In this document: piece after piece, positions 1,135 to 16,103 of the stretch
Layout: every line of letters begins with the position of its first letter
How positions within the stretch are numbered: the first letter of the stretch is position 1
Program-made: the position numbers and the translations under genes
Notes under the pieces: generated by a model
Database searches by the model: none
What the model saw: only the letters and a program-made list of their open reading frames with translations
What the model was told of the DNA's origin: nothing
From: Tumebacillus avium
GTDB lineage: Bacteria > Bacillota > Bacilli > Tumebacillales > Tumebacillaceae
Direction of reading: 5' to 3'
Assembly: GCF_002162355.1 (NCBI RefSeq)
Contig: NZ_CP021434.1
Location: 528,501 to 592,500, forward strand
Length of the DNA stretch: 64,000 bases

Positions 1135-2469
1135 TTAGTTGGAAGACACGCTCAGATTGGTCGCTTCGATCACGCGGGCGATGATGCTTTTGTTCAGTGC
1201 ATAGCCGCGGTTGAATTCCCGTTCCATCGCCAGTTCGGAGAGGTAATAGTCGGCGTTTTCAGCTTGCAACGAAGGCAAGCCCGGCACCCCTTGCAAGGCA
1301 GTCAGAAGCGCTGCGGCGTCATCCGCATCGAGCGCAGCGTTTGCACTCGTCAGCGCGGTTACCAGTGCTGCATTGCCCGTGTTGACGATCGTGACGACTC
1401 GCTGGATGTCTGCGAGGGTCTTCGGAGTCGGAAGCGCGTCGATCCCCTGCATGTAGAGGTCGGCGAGCACCGCTTGCGGGTAGGTGATGCCGGCATCTTT
1501 CAGCACGTCGATCAGTCCGGCCGGGTCGTTGGAGGATACCACTTCTTCGATGGTGAGCACGTTGACCACATCGATGGTCTGCTGCATCTCGACGCGGGTC
1601 AGATCGCGGTTGACTCTGTACTGCTTTTTAAGCAATGCATCCATGTACAACTCCTGGGTCGGTTCGAAGGAGCTGAGATGCTGGAAACTCTCGTCCTTCA
1701 AAGCGGCAAGCAGTTGAGCCGTCGGACTGTTGCGGATGACGTTATTTAGAGAGGTGAGATCCTCCAGAGTGTCCGTTCCGGTGCCTGTGCTCGGCTGGGT
1801 CGGCTCAGGGGTTGTGCCCGGTTCCGGTTGCGGCGCAGTCGGGTCTTGAGGAGCGCCGACCAGCGCGGTAAAGTTGGCAGCCATCACGGCAACCTCTTGG
1901 CGGGTCGCTTGGCTTTGCGGGTTGAAGTTGGTGCCGTCGCCGCGCATGAGCTTTTTCTCGATCGCGGTCTGGACGTACGCTTTGGCCCAAGAGGAGATCT
2001 TCTTGTGGTCGGCTACGGTCAAGGCGTCTGCTTGTCCGGCCGGGTCGATGTCTGCTGCCTTGACGAGCAGGACGGCGAGCTCTTCGCGGGTGATTTTGTC
2101 ATTCGGGCGGAACACAGCGCCGTCGCCGAGCATCACGCCCGCATGTTTCACCGCTTCGATCTGCTTCCAGCCCCAGTCGTTCGCTGTCACGTCGCTGAAG
2201 GTGATCTTGGTGGAAGCGGTCGTGTCCAGCTCCAGCAGCTTGACGAGGATCGCAGCTGCTTCCTGACGGGTAATGGCATCGAGCGGACGGAAGTTGTTGT
2301 CGGTGCCGCCTTGCATGATGCCGCTGTTGCGGGCTTCCAGCACCGCATCATATGCCCACGGGGCGATCTTGCCGGAGTCGAGGAAGTTGGCAGATGCTAT
2401 GGTGGCAGTTAATCCAGCGAACGTGGTAACGAGCAGTGCGCTGGCGAATACTTTCGAAAAGGTTCTCAT
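1135..2469 (-). CDS. SLH-domain secreted surface protein
   Basis: A 444-residue cell-surface protein. It has a signal peptide (residues 1-27, ending in ATIASA), then three S-layer homology repeats at roughly 30-75, 90-140 and 150-200, marked by ITRQEAA, ITREELA and TRQEVA. SLH domains bind pyruvylated secondary wall polymer. A Pro/Thr-rich linker (about 208-235) leads to a ~200-residue helical C-terminal region that I do not recognise. The start is supported by TTGGAGG. The 5' leader carries a short A/G simple repeat. It is a monocistronic unit with a terminator on each side. Confidence 0.88.
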   Translation of the reverse strand: MRTFSKVFASALLVTTFAGLTATIASANFLDSGKIAPWAYDAVLEARNSGIMQGGTDNNFRPLDAITRQEAAAILVKLLELDTTASTKITFSDVTANDWGWKQIEAVKHAGVMLGDGAVFRPNDKITREELAVLLVKAADIDPAGQADALTVADHKKISSWAKAYVQTAIEKKLMRGDGTNFNPQSQATRQEVAVMAANFTALVGAPQDPTAPQPEPGTTPEPTQPSTGTGTDTLEDLTSLNNVIRNSPTAQLLAALKDESFQHLSSFEPTQELYMDALLKKQYRVNRDLTRVEMQQTIDVVNVLTIEEVVSSNDPAGLIDVLKDAGITYPQAVLADLYMQGIDALPTPKTLADIQRVVTIVNTGNAALVTALTSANAALDADDAAALLTALQGVPGLPSLQAENADYYLSELAMEREFNRGYALNKSIIARVIEATNLSVSSN

Positions 2470-2493
2470 GCAGAAGCCTCCAATAGTTGATTT

Positions 2494-2515
2494 GAAAGAA
2501 AAAGAAAAAGAAAAA
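2494..2515. repeat. Simple repeat, three GAAAAA units plus a partial, in the 5' leader of the SLH gene
   Basis: Three exact GAAAAA hexamers at 2498-2515 preceded by GAAA. On the transcribed minus strand this is a T/C tract about 30-45 nt upstream of the SLH start codon. Confidence 0.8.
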
Positions 2516-2613
2516 TGGGAAAAAGTTGTATACTATCATAATATTCCTAGTTGATCGTGCTGGGCAAGTTGTTTTTAATAACATTGTAAAGAAGATATAA
2601 GTTCTATTTAGAT

Positions 2614-2656
2614 GAAGGAAGCCACCTGACACTGAACAGCGCGGGTGGCTTCCTTC
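2614..2656 (-). terminator. Strong intrinsic terminator after the secreted Ig-like protein gene
   Basis: A perfect 13-bp stem (GAAGGAAGCCACC with its complement) lies 13 bp beyond the stop at 2670. T-rich sequence flanks both sides, so it may act in both directions. The remaining 2470-2613 leader shows no other feature. Confidence 0.8.
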
Positions 2657-2669
2657 TTTTGTGTTTGAA

Positions 2670-3602
2670 TTACCCGCCAATCGGATCTCCCGGATCGCCT
2701 TCCGGTAGGGAGTAACTGCCATAGAGTGTTGCTTGCTGGTTCACCGCATCGACAATGCTTTGGATTTGCGCATGGTTCAGCAAAGCGCCGCTTGCTGTGC
2801 GGGCGTTGGAAAGCCCTGTTTGGTAAGCAGTTGCATACTCATGATAGGCAAATTCGATGCCTGCCTCCTGCAAAGCAAAATGTGTGGCAACCGGGTCGCC
2901 TGCGGTGATCTTGTCGTTTACGTTGAGCGTGATCGGGGACAGCGAATTGATTCCAGTCGGGATGGCCAGAGATACATAGGGGCTGGATGCCGCACCTGTC
3001 CCCCCTAAAACGAGGTATTGGACGTCGAGATGAGACAGGCCGTCTACCTTATTCACCGGCAGATAGACGGTGACAGTCCCTTCCACACTGCTGTTGTTGC
3101 GGCCGATCGCCAGTTCATTCGCGTGATTGAAGGGGTGGTCGATTTGGACAAATGCATATGCCGGCACATGGGACACCGTAACCTCGACCACATCTCCAAG
3201 ATAATGAGCAGCCGTTGTGTCTGCTGCGACCGGGCCTGGAGGAATCGTTGTCACCGCGCGCGCTACGCGGGCACTTTCCGTTTTGTCCGGCTGTGTCAGT
3301 GTCACGTATACGTTGCTCAGATCACCGAAGCCCTGCGGTAGTTCAAGGGTAGCGCCTCTCCAATACACGCTGCCTGCTGCAAGCAGCGTGCCGCCTGTTT
3401 CAGCATCATAAATTTTGACCACACTTCCCGCGTCTGCTGCGACATTCACATAGTCAGATCCGTCAAAATGATTGGTTATCGTGATCGAAGTCTCCAGTGG
3501 GGCCGGGGTAGCCGTTTCATCCAGCGCAGAAGCCTGCACCGGTTGTGTGGCTGCAACCATTAGCAGTGCGGCAGTTGCTAATAATTTGATGTACAATTTC
3601 AC
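2670..3602 (-). CDS. Secreted protein with Ig-like repeats (paralogue of the gene at 8036-9229)
   Basis: About 310 residues. The GTG at 3602 is the likely start because GGGAGG sits 7 nt upstream; an in-frame ATG 15 nt earlier overlaps that site. The signal peptide ends near QASA. The mature part holds beta-rich repeats with ITNHFDGSDYVNV, VVKIYDAETGGTLLAAG and NVYVTLTQPDKTE, closely matching segments of the larger protein at 8036-9229. The last ~55 residues are helical. The two genes also share the leader GGAGGTA..ATTGTG, so a duplication is likely. No catalytic motif was seen; binding or wall association is inference only. Confidence 0.8.
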   Translation of the reverse strand: MKLYIKLLATAALLMVAATQPVQASALDETATPAPLETSITITNHFDGSDYVNVAADAGSVVKIYDAETGGTLLAAGSVYWRGATLELPQGFGDLSNVYVTLTQPDKTESARVARAVTTIPPGPVAADTTAAHYLGDVVEVTVSHVPAYAFVQIDHPFNHANELAIGRNNSSVEGTVTVYLPVNKVDGLSHLDVQYLVLGGTGAASSPYVSLAIPTGINSLSPITLNVNDKITAGDPVATHFALQEAGIEFAYHEYATAYQTGLSNARTASGALLNHAQIQSIVDAVNQQATLYGSYSLPEGDPGDPIGG

Positions 3603-10448: not shown

Positions 10449-12338
10449 TTAAAAAGTGCTTGCCCGGCTGGTGACCTGTGTGATCTCGCGGACGTGTTTG
10501 GTCAGTTCGACCGTCATTTCGAAATAATTGAACGGCGTGATCAGATAGATGCCGTTATAATGTTTGACCGCTTCATCGAGCAGCTCTTTGCACATCTCGA
10601 CGCCTTCTGCCCGTGCAGCCGCGCCTTCGAAGCGCTTGATCCGCTCGCGGGACTTTTGCGAAATCTTGATGCCTGGCACTTCGTTGTGCAGAAACTCGGC
10701 GTTGCGCGTCGAGGTCAAAGGCATGATGCCGATGAAGATCGGGACTTTGATATGCGCGGTCGCTTCTTTGATCGCCAGCATCGTTTCCAGATCGTACACC
10801 GGCTGGGTCATGATGTAGTCCGCCCCCGCTTCGACTTTGCGTTCGAGGCGGGCGACCGCCGCGTCGAGGTTGCGCACATGCGGGTTGAACGCTGCGCCGC
10901 AGACGAAGCGGGCCTGATTCTTCATCGGACGCCCGGAGAAGGCGACGCCTTGGTTCAACTGTTTGACCATGCGGATCAGATCGAACGACGTCAGGTCAAA
11001 CACGGTGCTCGCCCCCGGCAGGTCGCCGACGCGGGCCGGATCGCCGGTGATGACGAGGATCTGATTGATGCCCAGCGCATGCAGCCCCATCAGGTGCGAC
11101 TGCTGCCCGATCAGGTTGCGGTCGCGGCAGGCGACGTGCACGACCGGCTCGATGCCCAGCTCCCGTTTGATGATCGAGCCAAGCGCCATGTTGCTCATCC
11201 GCGTGGTCGCCAGCGAGTTGTCGGCGATGGTGATCGCGTCCGCCCCCGCCTTGTACAGCTCATGGGAGCCTTCGACATAGCGCTCCACATCCAGATCGCG
11301 CGGCGAGTCGAACTCGACGATGATCGTGTGCCGTTTCTCCACGAGGTCGACGATGGTCGGCATCTCGCTCTGCTGGAAGCGCACCACTTCGCGCTCAAAC
11401 ACTTCGATGCGCGGGGCGTTCTCCGGGTTGACACGCGGGCGGCGCTTCAGGCCGGACACGGCGCCTGCGATCGCCTGGATATGCTCCGGCGTTGTGCCGC
11501 AGCAGCCGCCGATCAGCGATACGCCTTGCTCCCACAGTTTGACCGCACTATCTCCAAAATACTGATAATTGGGCTTATAGGCAAACTCTCCGTCGACGAT
11601 CGCCGGGCGGCCTGCGTTCGGGAACGCCGACAAGCCCAGCCCTTCCGGCACCACCGCCCGCTCCAGCGCCCGCAAGATCTCGGCCGGACCGAGGCGGCAG
11701 TTCAGGCCAACCATGTCGGCGCCCGCTTCTTTCAATTTAAAATACGCATCGCTGAGCAGGTAGCCGTCCCGGGTGCGCTCGACATCGAGCAGCGAGCACT
11801 GGGCGATGATCGGCACACCGGAGGATGCGACGAGCGGACGCACCACGTCGAGCGCGAGGAGCAGTTCTTCCAGATCGAAGAACGTCTCCAGCACCAGACC
11901 GTCCACGCCTTCGTGAAGCAACGCCACCGCCTGTTCCTCAAAAGAGTCGCGGAACTCTTCGACATTGGCGGTCATCACGCGGGCCGCCGCGATCGAGCCG
12001 ATGCTGCCGACGACAAACGCATCCGCTTCGGCGATCTCCACCGCCTGGCGGGCAAGCTGTACAGCCGCGCGGTTGATCCGCGTCGTCTTGCGCTCCAGCC
12101 CGTAGCGGGCGAGCGCTTCGCGGTTCGCCGCGTAGGAGTTGGTCTCGATCACCTGCGCTCCTGCACGCAAGTACGCCATGTGGGCTTCGCGCACCCACTC
12201 TTGATTTTTCAAACACAACTCCTCGGTTGAAGAGCCGACCGCATGGCCTTGCTGGTACAGCCACGTCGCCATCGCGCCGTCGCCGATCAGCACGTCTGTG
12301 CCAAGTTTTTGCCGAAACAACTCATGCCGACTGCTCAC
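10449..12338 (-). CDS. yitJ: Bifunctional homocysteine S-methyltransferase / methylenetetrahydrofolate reductase
   Basis: About 629 residues. Residues 1-290 are the homocysteine methyltransferase domain, with zinc ligands in GLNCRLGP and the GGCCGTTPEHI motif (two adjacent Cys). Residues ~310-610 are a MetF-type FAD-containing reductase (ADAITIADNS, ITGDPARVGD, GAAFNPH). YitJ proteins couple 5,10-methylene-THF reduction to methionine formation. The GTG at 12338 is preceded by GGGAGGATGCAGC; the open frame runs further upstream into the riboswitch leader, but no ribosome site supports that. Expression is controlled by the SAM riboswitch upstream. Confidence 0.93.
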   Translation of the reverse strand: MSSRHELFRQKLGTDVLIGDGAMATWLYQQGHAVGSSTEELCLKNQEWVREAHMAYLRAGAQVIETNSYAANREALARYGLERKTTRINRAAVQLARQAVEIAEADAFVVGSIGSIAAARVMTANVEEFRDSFEEQAVALLHEGVDGLVLETFFDLEELLLALDVVRPLVASSGVPIIAQCSLLDVERTRDGYLLSDAYFKLKEAGADMVGLNCRLGPAEILRALERAVVPEGLGLSAFPNAGRPAIVDGEFAYKPNYQYFGDSAVKLWEQGVSLIGGCCGTTPEHIQAIAGAVSGLKRRPRVNPENAPRIEVFEREVVRFQQSEMPTIVDLVEKRHTIIVEFDSPRDLDVERYVEGSHELYKAGADAITIADNSLATTRMSNMALGSIIKRELGIEPVVHVACRDRNLIGQQSHLMGLHALGINQILVITGDPARVGDLPGASTVFDLTSFDLIRMVKQLNQGVAFSGRPMKNQARFVCGAAFNPHVRNLDAAVARLERKVEAGADYIMTQPVYDLETMLAIKEATAHIKVPIFIGIMPLTSTRNAEFLHNEVPGIKISQKSRERIKRFEGAAARAEGVEMCKELLDEAVKHYNGIYLITPFNYFEMTVELTKHVREITQVTSRASTF

Positions 12339-12410
12339 GCTGCATCCTCCCTCTCTTTGTCGTAGTGCTTCGATGTAGTAGTGCTCCGATAACGGAATAA
12401 AGTCCGAATA

Positions 12411-12449
12411 TAAAAGAAAACGCCTCTTCTTTGGCATAAGAAGAGGCGT
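12411..12449 (-). terminator. Terminator of the SAM riboswitch expression platform
   Basis: A 9-bp stem (CGCCTCTTC with GAAGAGGCG) followed on the minus strand by TTTTCTTTTA. It lies between the SAM aptamer and yitJ, as expected for a premature terminator formed when SAM is bound. Confidence 0.85.
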
Positions 12450-12473: not shown

Positions 12474-12600
12474 CCTCTCTTATCTGCCAAGCCGCATCAT
12501 CATGCGGCCTTGCTGGAATTGGCACCTAATCGCAGCTAGTTGCTACCGGTTGCCGAGGCTTCAAAGGGCCAGTCCCTCCACCTCTCTGGATAAGAGCTTG
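12474..12600 (-). promoter_or_regulatory. SAM-I (S-box) riboswitch aptamer
   Basis: Read on the minus strand, it has all the S-box landmarks: P1 strands CTCTTATC and GATAAGAG, AGAGAGGTGGAGGGACTGGC, GATGAAGCC-type TTTGAAGCCTCGGCAACC, AGGTGCCAATTCC, and a P4 hairpin CCGCATgatgATGCGG. S-box aptamers bind S-adenosylmethionine and stop transcription of methionine genes. Target genes here are yitJ and probably the downstream flavin monooxygenase. Confidence 0.96.
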
Positions 12601-14250: not shown

Positions 14251-14796
14251 CTAGTCGATGTCGATGCCCATGAAAATCGCGTCGTAAAATGTCCCATCGA
14301 GATACATCGACCGGCGGTGCACGCCTTCCTGCACGAAGCCGAGCTTTTTGTAGACGTGGATCGCGCCGTGGTTGTCAACGCGTGTCACCAGGTTGATCTT
14401 GCGGACGATCCCGGTCGATTTAGCCCAGTCGAGCAAGAGGGTCAGCATGTGGGAGGCGATGCCGTGGCCCCAATATTTTTCACGGACGGTGATGCCGAAT
14501 TCACCGACGTGGCGCGAGCGCTGGCGGTGTCCGCCGGCGAAGTTGTTGACCGAGGCGATCTCCCCGTCGATCAGGCCGATCAGGAAAATTTTGTTGTCGC
14601 TTTGGATGTGGTCTTCGATGATCGCAACTTCCTGTTCCACAGTCGTGGTAAATTCGCCCGGGCCAAATCCGAGATAAGGGCTTTCGTAAGGAACTTGCTG
14701 CAGGTAGGCGACGATCGCGGCAGCGTCGTCCGGCGCTGCTTCGCGGATCGTCAGCGTGCGTCCGTCTTTCAGTTGGTGGGTGCGGGTGGTGTCCAT
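14251..14796 (-). CDS. GNAT family N-acetyltransferase
   Basis: 181 residues of the GNAT fold. The acetyl-CoA loop is WGHGIASHM and the C-terminal part has RVDNHGAIHVYKKLGFVQEG, typical of the RimL/spermidine-like branch. Start ATG has AGAGGGGACAG upstream. Substrate unknown. Confidence 0.88.
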   Translation of the reverse strand: MDTTRTHQLKDGRTLTIREAAPDDAAAIVAYLQQVPYESPYLGFGPGEFTTTVEQEVAIIEDHIQSDNKIFLIGLIDGEIASVNNFAGGHRQRSRHVGEFGITVREKYWGHGIASHMLTLLLDWAKSTGIVRKINLVTRVDNHGAIHVYKKLGFVQEGVHRRSMYLDGTFYDAIFMGIDID

Positions 14797-14874
14797 GATC
14801 TGTCCCCTCTTGTCATCTTTTATCCACCATTATAGCGTTTGTTTCGGGTAAAATGAGAGCAGGAGGTGTGCATC

Positions 14875-15441
14875 ATGGACTTTTTGTTAGACGCACCAAA
14901 TTCACAGGAGCAAGTCGCGCTCGATCAACTGATCGGCGAACAGCGCATGCTGCTTGTGCTCTTGCGCCACCTTGGCTGACCGCTGTGCAGAAGTTATCTC
15001 GCGCAGTTGCGTGAGTCCGCAGAAGAGATTACCCGTCACGGGGTGAAGATCGTCACCGTCGCTCCGGCGCCGGGCGACCAGTTGGCCCCGTTTATTGAAG
15101 AATACGGACCGTATCCGTTCCCGCTGTACGGCGACCCTACGAACGCCTTGTACCTCGCGCTGGGCAGCCGCCAGATGAGCAAATGGGACATGGTCAAGCT
15201 CGTCACCCGCGGCATCGTCACAGGCGGCGTCAAGATCTCCGAGATCGTGCCGAAAGACCCAGAGCAGCGCGAGATCTCGATGAAGGCGGCGAAGACGCAG
15301 GATGTGGCGCTGCAAGGAGGCACCTGCCTCTTGTCGGCAACGGGCGACATGCTCTGGCAGCATCGCGACCAGACGCCCGATGACCATGCGACGATCCCGA
15401 TGATTCTCGAGCAGATTAAGCAAAACGACCCGGTCCTGTAA
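14875..15441 (+). CDS. Peroxiredoxin-like protein, candidate selenoprotein with in-frame TGA (Sec35)
   Basis: 188 codons if the TGA at 14977-14979 is read as selenocysteine. The ATG at 14875 has AGGAGG 7 nt upstream, and there is no comparable site after the TGA. The protein is of the AhpC/TSA-like (PRXL2-type) thioredoxin-fold family, whose active site normally reads GCPLCR; here it is GUPLCR (U35, C38). Reading continues in the same frame with a well-conserved body (GVKIVTVAPAPGDQLAPF, GPYPFPLYGDPT, WQHRDQTPDDH). A SECIS-like hairpin follows the TGA. It would reduce peroxides or disulfides. The other reading is a stop mutation at exactly the catalytic Cys codon. No sel genes are in the window. 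Confidence 0.8.
14998..15015 (+). promoter_or_regulatory. SECIS-like hairpin downstream of the in-frame TGA
   Basis: CTCGCGC (14998-15004) pairs with GCGTGAG (15009-15015) through 7 bp including one G-U, with apical loop AGTT. The loop starts 25 nt after the TGA and carries G in its second position. Published bacterial SECIS features include a short stem, a G among the first two loop bases and a similar distance from the TGA. SelB binding is inferred. Confidence 0.65.
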
Positions 15442-15460
15442 GGACGGGTCGTTTTCTTTA
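15424..15460 (+). terminator. Intrinsic terminator after the peroxiredoxin-like gene
   Basis: A 12-bp stem with one bulged G (AACGACCCGGTCC with GGACGGGTCGTT) is followed by TTTTCTTTA. The TAA stop is in the loop, which shows that the full reading frame through the TGA is a real gene end. Confidence 0.85.
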
Positions 15461-15473
15461 TCCTGCTCAAAAA

Positions 15474-16103
15474 TTACTCAAAGCGCTCCGAAATCACCAG
15501 CTCGGACAGCGGAAGGCGCACAGAGTCATGGCCTTTTTCGGTGCCTTTGCCCAAGGTGATCATCATCGTCGGGAAGAAGCGGGACGGGATGTTCAGCTCG
15601 GCGACCAGCTGGTCGCGGTTGAAGCCGGCCATCGGGCAGGTGTCATAGCCGAGAGCGGTCGCCGCCAGCATCAGCTGCATCGCTGCGAAGGAAGAGTTGA
15701 TCAGCGCCGCATCGTGCCCAAACTGCGGCGGGTTGTTGGCGTAGGTCGGCTTGATTTGGCCAAGCAGCATGTCGGCGATCTCACGGGTCATGTTGCCCGC
15801 TTCCACCGCTTGGTTGTAGATCATGTCGGCCGCCTTGTCCGCTTCCTGGTCAGCCAGGATGATGATCACAGCCGGAGCGTCGACCACTTGCTGCTGGTTG
15901 TACGCGGTCGGCAGCAGCTTCTGCTTGTTGTCCTGGTTGGTCACCACGAGGAAACGCCAGTGCTGCAGGTTCCACGCCGACGGAGCGGTCGCAGCCAGCT
16001 CGAGGATCTGGTTCAGGTCCTCCTGCGGCATGGTCGGCTCGTATTTGCGTACAGAATGACGGGTACGCATCGCCTCTTGGGCGGTCATCTGTTGTTGCGT
16101 CAT
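15474..16103 (-). CDS. Nitroreductase family protein (NAD(P)H-FMN oxidoreductase)
   Basis: About 209 residues. It has the family signatures TRHSVRKYEP near the N-terminus (FMN phosphate contacts), APSAWNLQHWRFLVV, and ALGYDTCPMAGF with an ITLGKGTEK tail, close to the YodC/MhqN group that reduces quinones or nitro compounds. The ATG at 16103 is preferred because AAGAGG lies 8 nt upstream; a GTG three codons earlier overlaps it. It is convergent with the peroxiredoxin gene. Confidence 0.88.
   Translation of the reverse strand: MTQQQMTAQEAMRTRHSVRKYEPTMPQEDLNQILELAATAPSAWNLQHWRFLVVTNQDNKQKLLPTAYNQQQVVDAPAVIIILADQEADKAADMIYNQAVEAGNMTREIADMLLGQIKPTYANNPPQFGHDAALINSSFAAMQLMLAATALGYDTCPMAGFNRDQLVAELNIPSRFFPTMMITLGKGTEKGHDSVRLPLSELVISERFE

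Follow-up and report, generated by a model that had tools for sequence, protein, structure and literature searches.

SelL is a selenocysteine (Sec, U) protein of aquatic animals that carries a UxxU motif. For prokaryotes, a 2026 inventory tabulates 119 selenoprotein families and subfamilies, splitting subfamilies of the same domain by their Sec motif; the PRX-like2 type (cd02970) is listed there only as UxxS, next to UxxC types under pfam00578 and pfam08534 (PMC13188914, Table 1). Here we describe a gene at 14875-15441 of a 64,000-nt stretch of the Tumebacillus avium genome (contig NZ_CP021434.1, positions 528,501 to 592,500, forward strand; hereafter the window, whose coordinates are used unless a contig is named). 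This gene very probably encodes a selenoprotein, in which TGA codon 35 is decoded as Sec to give a 188-residue PRXL2/SelL-like UxxC redox enzyme; we infer Sec insertion from the comparisons that follow.

The tabulated cd02970/pfam13911 UxxS selenoprotein (PMC13188914, PMC9312934) shares with the window protein the PRX-like2/AhpC-TSA_2 domain and Sec as the first residue of the motif. Going by the table entry, which is what the comparison covers, it differs in the motif itself, which is UxxC in 20/20 genes of the window family. The listed UxxC peroxiredoxin-like selenoproteins are alike in motif and fold, but are tabulated under other Pfam families, whereas the window protein matches PF13911 best. 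Among NCBI models the closest is SelL-related redox protein (NCBIfam NF040769). It is matched by 23/23 rows of our alignment at E up to 0.001, yet the window protein, which matches it end to end, reaches only 93.2 bits against a curated cut-off of 120, and is not a member by that measure. Human PRXL2B, prostamide/prostaglandin F (PGF) synthase (9us9/9usa), resembles the window protein by sequence profile at about 22-26% identity and has Cys instead of Sec. Since the inventory, as tabulated, splits same-domain subfamilies by motif and holds PRX-like2 only as UxxS, the window family appears, to judge from sequence, to be a new subfamily within a known selenoprotein kind. A pfam13911 UxxC subfamily is absent from Table 1 of PMC13188914 and from review tables (e.g. 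PMC9312934), a comparison with subscription papers and supplements outside its scope; the consulted parts of the literature on selenocysteine with Bacillales or Tumebacillus (including PMC5029168) likewise hold no description of it.

The reading frame opens with ATG at 14875 and runs through 34 sense codons to the TGA at 14977-14979, after which it stays open to a TAA at 15439-15441. Reading TGA as Sec gives a 188-residue product containing RHLGUPLCR. An inverted repeat rich in G+C, with T after it, has this TAA in its loop, and a scan found terminator-like matches at 15433-15448. An earlier note, made from the letters of the window, had proposed this gene as a candidate selenoprotein and had described the AGGAGG, the ATG, the TGA after 34 codons and the intact end in a terminator, all of which sequence and translation bear out.

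An initial contig scan with the single sequence as query found zero relatives, and the same kind of query drew one match from the protein database, a 144-aa form at 98% identity; an alignment was needed as query to reach relatives in both genomes and protein database. A first search, of the host genome and 60 relatives, yielded five homologues, 42-46% identical, and each of their matches contains a single TGA. Searched with the alignment, 398 Bacilli genomes contain 11 strong matches (E <= 2.2e-57, host included), with TGA in 11/11; in two of these a further TGA, close to the C-terminal end, may be the true stop. The 62 matching genomes included 51 with only <50-bit matches (other peroxiredoxin- or thioredoxin-like proteins, mostly stop-free), which were excluded from the TGA count. 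With each species represented by one genome, a scan gave 59 loci, the 13 strongest of which are all from Bacillales and all have TGA. Four of the 13 are in genomes already counted, and the remainder together with the 11 make up 20 distinct genes, host included, from sources that include Tumebacillus, Planococcus, Cytobacillus, Salipaludibacillus, Sediminibacillus, Piscibacillus and Mesobacillus. Both the TGA at the aligned codon and the UxxC motif are present in 20/20; the other 19 genes are 37-45% identical to the window gene, and coding conservation extends past the TGA across the alignment. Among the 46 weaker loci, Cys stands at the TGA position in 40, these being the 40 that are readable; the motif search left six unread (L091, L094, L099, L112, L115 and L128). 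The in-frame UGA thus lies within a conserved frame that has homologues with Cys at its position, and the alignment of relatives that the earlier note had called for shows TGA or Cys wherever it can be read.

These counts bear on a rival reading, an ordinary Cys-type gene in which a nonsense mutation has lately arisen or a base was wrongly sequenced. Cys-type relatives do exist, and a single base change in TGC or TGT yields TGA, but the same codon is TGA in 20/20 distinct genes from independent assemblies, the hairpin described below is conserved with it, and the protein is conserved beyond it. We give this rival almost no credence; the earlier note had held a random nonsense mutation here to be unlikely, and TGA and hairpin do recur in all 20 genes.

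A search of 338 genomes of the phylum (E up to 1e-12) matched three: the host, G625 and G426. G625, outside the class, carries two adjacent PRXL2-like genes (G625:C38:39798-40738, minus strand; L178 and L180), each with TGA in UxxC and with hairpins that show compensatory stem changes, and G426 has two Cys forms. A maximum-likelihood tree with 31 rows places the database Cys form P0004 beside a Salipaludibacillus Sec gene and inside the Sec genes (support 87/84), which suggests a Sec-to-Cys change. The tree used 11 of 74 database proteins and several of its long branches were flagged; because a Cys group attaches at a fork that is open, it does not establish a single Sec clade.

A SECIS (selenocysteine insertion sequence)-like hairpin follows the TGA. 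The AGTT loop (15005-15008) starts exactly 25 nt after the TGA, and seven pairs join 14998-15004 with 15009-15015; the 18-nt hairpin by itself folds at -10.1 kcal/mol. A model of bacterial SECIS elements specifies a loop of 3-9 nt, a stem of 4-16 bp, a G among the first two loop nucleotides, a spacing of 16-37 nt and a minimum free energy of <= -7.5 kcal/mol (PMC13188914, as given there). Measured on the hairpin itself, the window element agrees with each of these values (loop 4, stem 7 bp, G in second position, spacing 25, -10.1 kcal/mol), so that the hairpin described in the earlier note (7 bp, AGTT, 25 nt, G second in the loop) stands. AGUU occurs at the 25-nt spacing in 20/20 genes, and the arms pair in 138/140 cells (7/7 pairs in 18 genes, 6/7 in two). 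RNAalifold recovers the same helix unprompted. We judge the hairpin to be beyond chance because it recurs, with the TGA, in all 20 distinct genes.

Since the hairpin lies in coding sequence, its conservation was compared with that of synonymous codons elsewhere in the same genes. Shared-residue synonymous identity is 1.00 at Ala43, Gln44 and Leu45 and averages 0.85 over codons 42-47, against a mean of 0.37 over 49 other columns (maximum 0.65). CAG for Gln and TTG for Leu are used in the hairpin by 20/20 genes; outside it they make up 41% of Gln codons and 14% of Leu codons. The putative SECIS core of the family is nearly invariant, GCAGUUGC at a fixed 25-nt spacing. A fixed pattern of TGA, UxxC spacing and hairpin core has 12 exact matches in the 398 Bacilli genomes, namely the 11 family genes and a separate peroxiredoxin-like gene in G011 (G011:C1:2365454-2365900, minus strand; L029/L143; PF00578, 98 bits), whose TGA falls in GTWUPNC and whose hairpin has an identical core and spacing. 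One mismatch adds one match, in G024, whose selA search gave no match; the reversed control of the pattern has four matches at up to one mismatch. A hairpin scan of the host genome at up to three mismatches gave nine sites vs seven in the reversed control, of which only the window site is exact, and so shows no further sites.

The host genome (one contig of 5,249,768 bases, an estimated 99.4% complete with 5.3% contamination) encodes the whole Sec machinery, all four components of which the earlier note had listed to be sought: selA (603 bits), selB (387 bits, above the curated cut-off), selD (407 bits) and selC, the tRNA-Sec, with anticodon tca (ARAGORN; 64.5 bits vs a gathering score of 47). 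The selD match (G000:C1:5005109-5006035, minus strand; L018) itself contains one in-frame TGA, which gives AGUGCKI, then GCGCAAGTTTTGCG, and SelD is therefore probably a selenoprotein too; we take the place of this TGA to be the catalytic Cys position of SelD. A thioredoxin reductase gene (TIGR01292, 394 bits) lies immediately 5' of selB with 15 nt between them (L001:523-1464 and 1483-3381, plus strand, near 2.255 Mb in G000:C1). The best match to the formate dehydrogenase alpha subunit (G000:C1:4237988-4239994, minus strand) is above its family cut-off and has no internal stop, so the Sec use of the host is not accounted for by the usual Sec-containing FdhA. Across the 398 Bacilli genomes selA is above cut-off in 85 overall and in 11/11 that bear the family (hypergeometric 2.5e-8), a test that covers the genomes of this class search.

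The machinery also bears on whether TGA might be read as Trp under another code, or passed by general read-through, with no selenium involved. One full-length database protein, P0003, is indeed predicted with Trp at the Sec position, probably because its gene caller used another code. Readable relatives have Cys here, not Trp, the full machinery is in the genome and selA is in all gene-bearing genomes of the 398, and read-through would have no need of the hairpin. Trp decoding or read-through is extremely unlikely.

Some observations do weigh against Sec decoding guided by this hairpin. Folded alone, the 60 nt from the TGA form a competing stem (z -0.93; 32/200 shuffles as stable); it is comparison between genes that shows the hairpin, and not the folding of this stretch as a single sequence. 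Covariation on the 20 genes is weak, with 15/500 shuffles reaching the score and 247/500 the number of pairs with compensatory changes. When the G011 peroxiredoxin-like gene and both G625 genes are added (23 genes), five compensatory cells in two pairs give a covariation score of 0.242, reached by 0/500 shuffles, and slid controls score at most 0.091; the control slid by +3 likewise has two pairs changed on both sides, at a far lower score. The selA association takes genomes as independent, with kinship uncorrected. Both same-genus genomes, G001 and G002, have selA above cut-off without this gene, and therefore other genes must maintain Sec use there.

Databases hold the family mainly in shortened form. 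At E below 1e-30 there are 22 protein clusters, the window's own included, and 20 of them are 120-156 aa long; examples are a 'redoxin domain-containing protein' of Filobacillus milosensis, which starts slightly earlier than most, and an 'AhpC/TSA family protein' of Salibacterium aidingense. The two full-length clusters are P0003, with Trp, and P0004, with Cys. Of the 20 short clusters, 15 start at the residue equivalent to Leu45, whose codon is the hairpin TTG in the 20 genes read; starts were judged from first residues, the DNA of most clusters being unseen. The earlier note had expected automated annotation to cut the window protein back to a start after the TGA. One might suppose instead that the short protein from the TTG at 15007 is the functional product, as the 20/22 clusters would have it. 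Such a protein would lack UxxC and, going by the structure model, the first strands together with the beginning of the active-site helix, and its proposed start is within the hairpin; codons 1-34 are conserved, and in the window gene they are open and preceded by a Shine-Dalgarno-like site; the database entries are gene-caller output. We find the short product very unlikely. Nonsense mutation, altered code and internal start were thus each tested and set aside, every one on the grounds given with it.

The preferred product, the 188-residue Sec protein, matches PF13911 (AhpC-TSA_2) at 53.3 bits, above the gathering cut-off of 27, followed by PF00578 (44.5 bits) and PF08534 (27.0 bits). Its structure model is a confident one (predicted local distance difference test, pLDDT, 92) and has a thioredoxin/peroxiredoxin-type fold. 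By profile alignment the nearest solved structure, first in further comparisons too, is PRXL2B, whose CxxC aligns with U35-C38. In the canonical peroxiredoxin Bcp (2cx3) the Ser of SPVC aligns with Sec35 and its Cys, the peroxidatic one, with Cys38. The window protein lacks the canonical peroxiredoxin motif, given as PxxxTxxC/U (PMC13188914), with Thr/Ser three residues before the peroxidatic Cys; it does have the PRXL2B-type arrangement, an aligned CxxC whose first Cys is exchangeable for Sec. By alignment, Sec35 thus stands where a PRXL2/SelL-type CxxC has its first Cys. The description of the gene as peroxiredoxin-like holds for domain and fold and is refined to the PRXL2/SelL type by the nearest structure and nearest NCBI model; the placing of the TGA exactly at the catalytic Cys holds in the sense of the first Cys of CxxC, not in that of the peroxidatic Cys of a true peroxiredoxin, which aligns with residue 38.

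SelB and tRNA-Sec would decode TGA codon 35 as Sec, with the conserved hairpin that follows at 25 nt as their guide, and the product would act as a selenol-based oxidoreductase/peroxidase. Sec35, just ahead of helix 36-54, would attack an oxidised substrate (peroxide or disulfide), Cys38 would resolve it as a selenenylsulfide (Se-S bond), and the thioredoxin system, whose reductase gene lies just upstream of selB, would reduce the Se-S form. A variant would insert Sec equally and follow a true peroxiredoxin mechanism, with Cys38 peroxidatic, as the Bcp alignment would allow, and Sec35 as its partner. The first Cys of CxxC is the nucleophile in proteins such as PGF synthase and ResA, and selenium is kept here at that first-Cys place, position 35; moreover, in the known peroxiredoxin selenoprotein Sec occupies the TxxU place, which would correspond to position 38 here. 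We consider the variant unlikely.

The host genome has a further candidate Sec gene, a 448-residue frame (G000:C1:1262365-1263708, minus strand; L031:511-1854) that joins an AhpC-TSA domain (115 bits) with FRGTFUPNC to a methyl-accepting chemotaxis protein (MCP) signalling domain (99 bits). The class search gave five long fusions, with TGA in three (G000; G103, L137; G254, L138) and Cys in two (G004, L135; G106, L136); the Pfam scan covered the G000 fusion and the other four were recognised by shared sequence. At the SECIS place, 22-nt stretches of the three TGA fusions have folding energies of -9.1 to -9.4 kcal/mol, vs 0 and -3.1 for the two Cys fusions, so among the five a strong SECIS-like hairpin is limited to TGA forms. 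The fusion is a candidate selenium-based redox-sensing receptor, and would, if it is one, place selenium in a sensor. A limited search for a Sec-MCP fusion found 'methyl-accepting chemotaxis' absent from the literature checked, as far as its consulted parts go.

Taken together, we lean towards an unlisted, almost purely Sec-type PRXL2/SelL subfamily across Bacillales, with a near-invariant SECIS core at 25 nt that also serves a different UxxC peroxiredoxin, and with the host Sec peroxiredoxin-MCP fusion as a selenium-based peroxide-sensing receptor. If so, databases record a selenoprotein subfamily of many Bacillales genera chiefly as fragments, truncated and labelled 'redoxin' or 'AhpC/TSA', most of them starting at a residue encoded inside the SECIS, and correcting them adds a subfamily to the selenoproteome of Bacillales, an order whose Sec use gets little attention in the literature consulted. 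The natural series of Sec genes with its nested Cys form would also offer a handle on what a PRXL2-type active site gains from selenium.

Features of the gene and its surroundings in the window are collected in Table 1.

Table 1. Features of the candidate selenoprotein gene (window coordinates)
Feature	Position	Strand	Basis
Candidate selenoprotein gene, 188 residues + TAA, PF13911 (PRXL2/SelL-like) domain	14875..15441	+	Translation, Pfam, NCBIfam, 19 other distinct homologues
Shine-Dalgarno-like AGGAGG, 8 nt before ATG	14861..14866	+	Sequence
In-frame TGA, codon 35, predicted selenocysteine	14977..14979	+	TGA in 20/20 distinct Bacillales genes; Cys in 40/46 more distant loci
UxxC motif (Sec35-Pro-Leu-Cys38)	14977..14988	+	Translation and alignment
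SECIS-like hairpin, 7 bp stem, AGUU loop at 15005-15008	14998..15015	+	Comparison, folding, pattern scan
TTG within hairpin, start of mechanical 144-aa open reading frame (ORF); likely false start	15007..15009	+	ORF list, database proteins
Terminator-like inverted repeat, TAA in loop	15422..15455	+	Read by eye; scan found partial stems

The neighbours of the gene encode a GNAT acetyltransferase and a nitroreductase, each on the opposite strand, and a scan of 14700-15560 found no sigma-70-like promoter. Elsewhere in the window, an S-adenosylmethionine (SAM) riboswitch (RF00162, 85 bits) at 12477-12596 on the minus strand lies upstream of an ORF at 10449-12437 (minus strand) that by eye resembles homocysteine methyltransferase/methylenetetrahydrofolate reductase.
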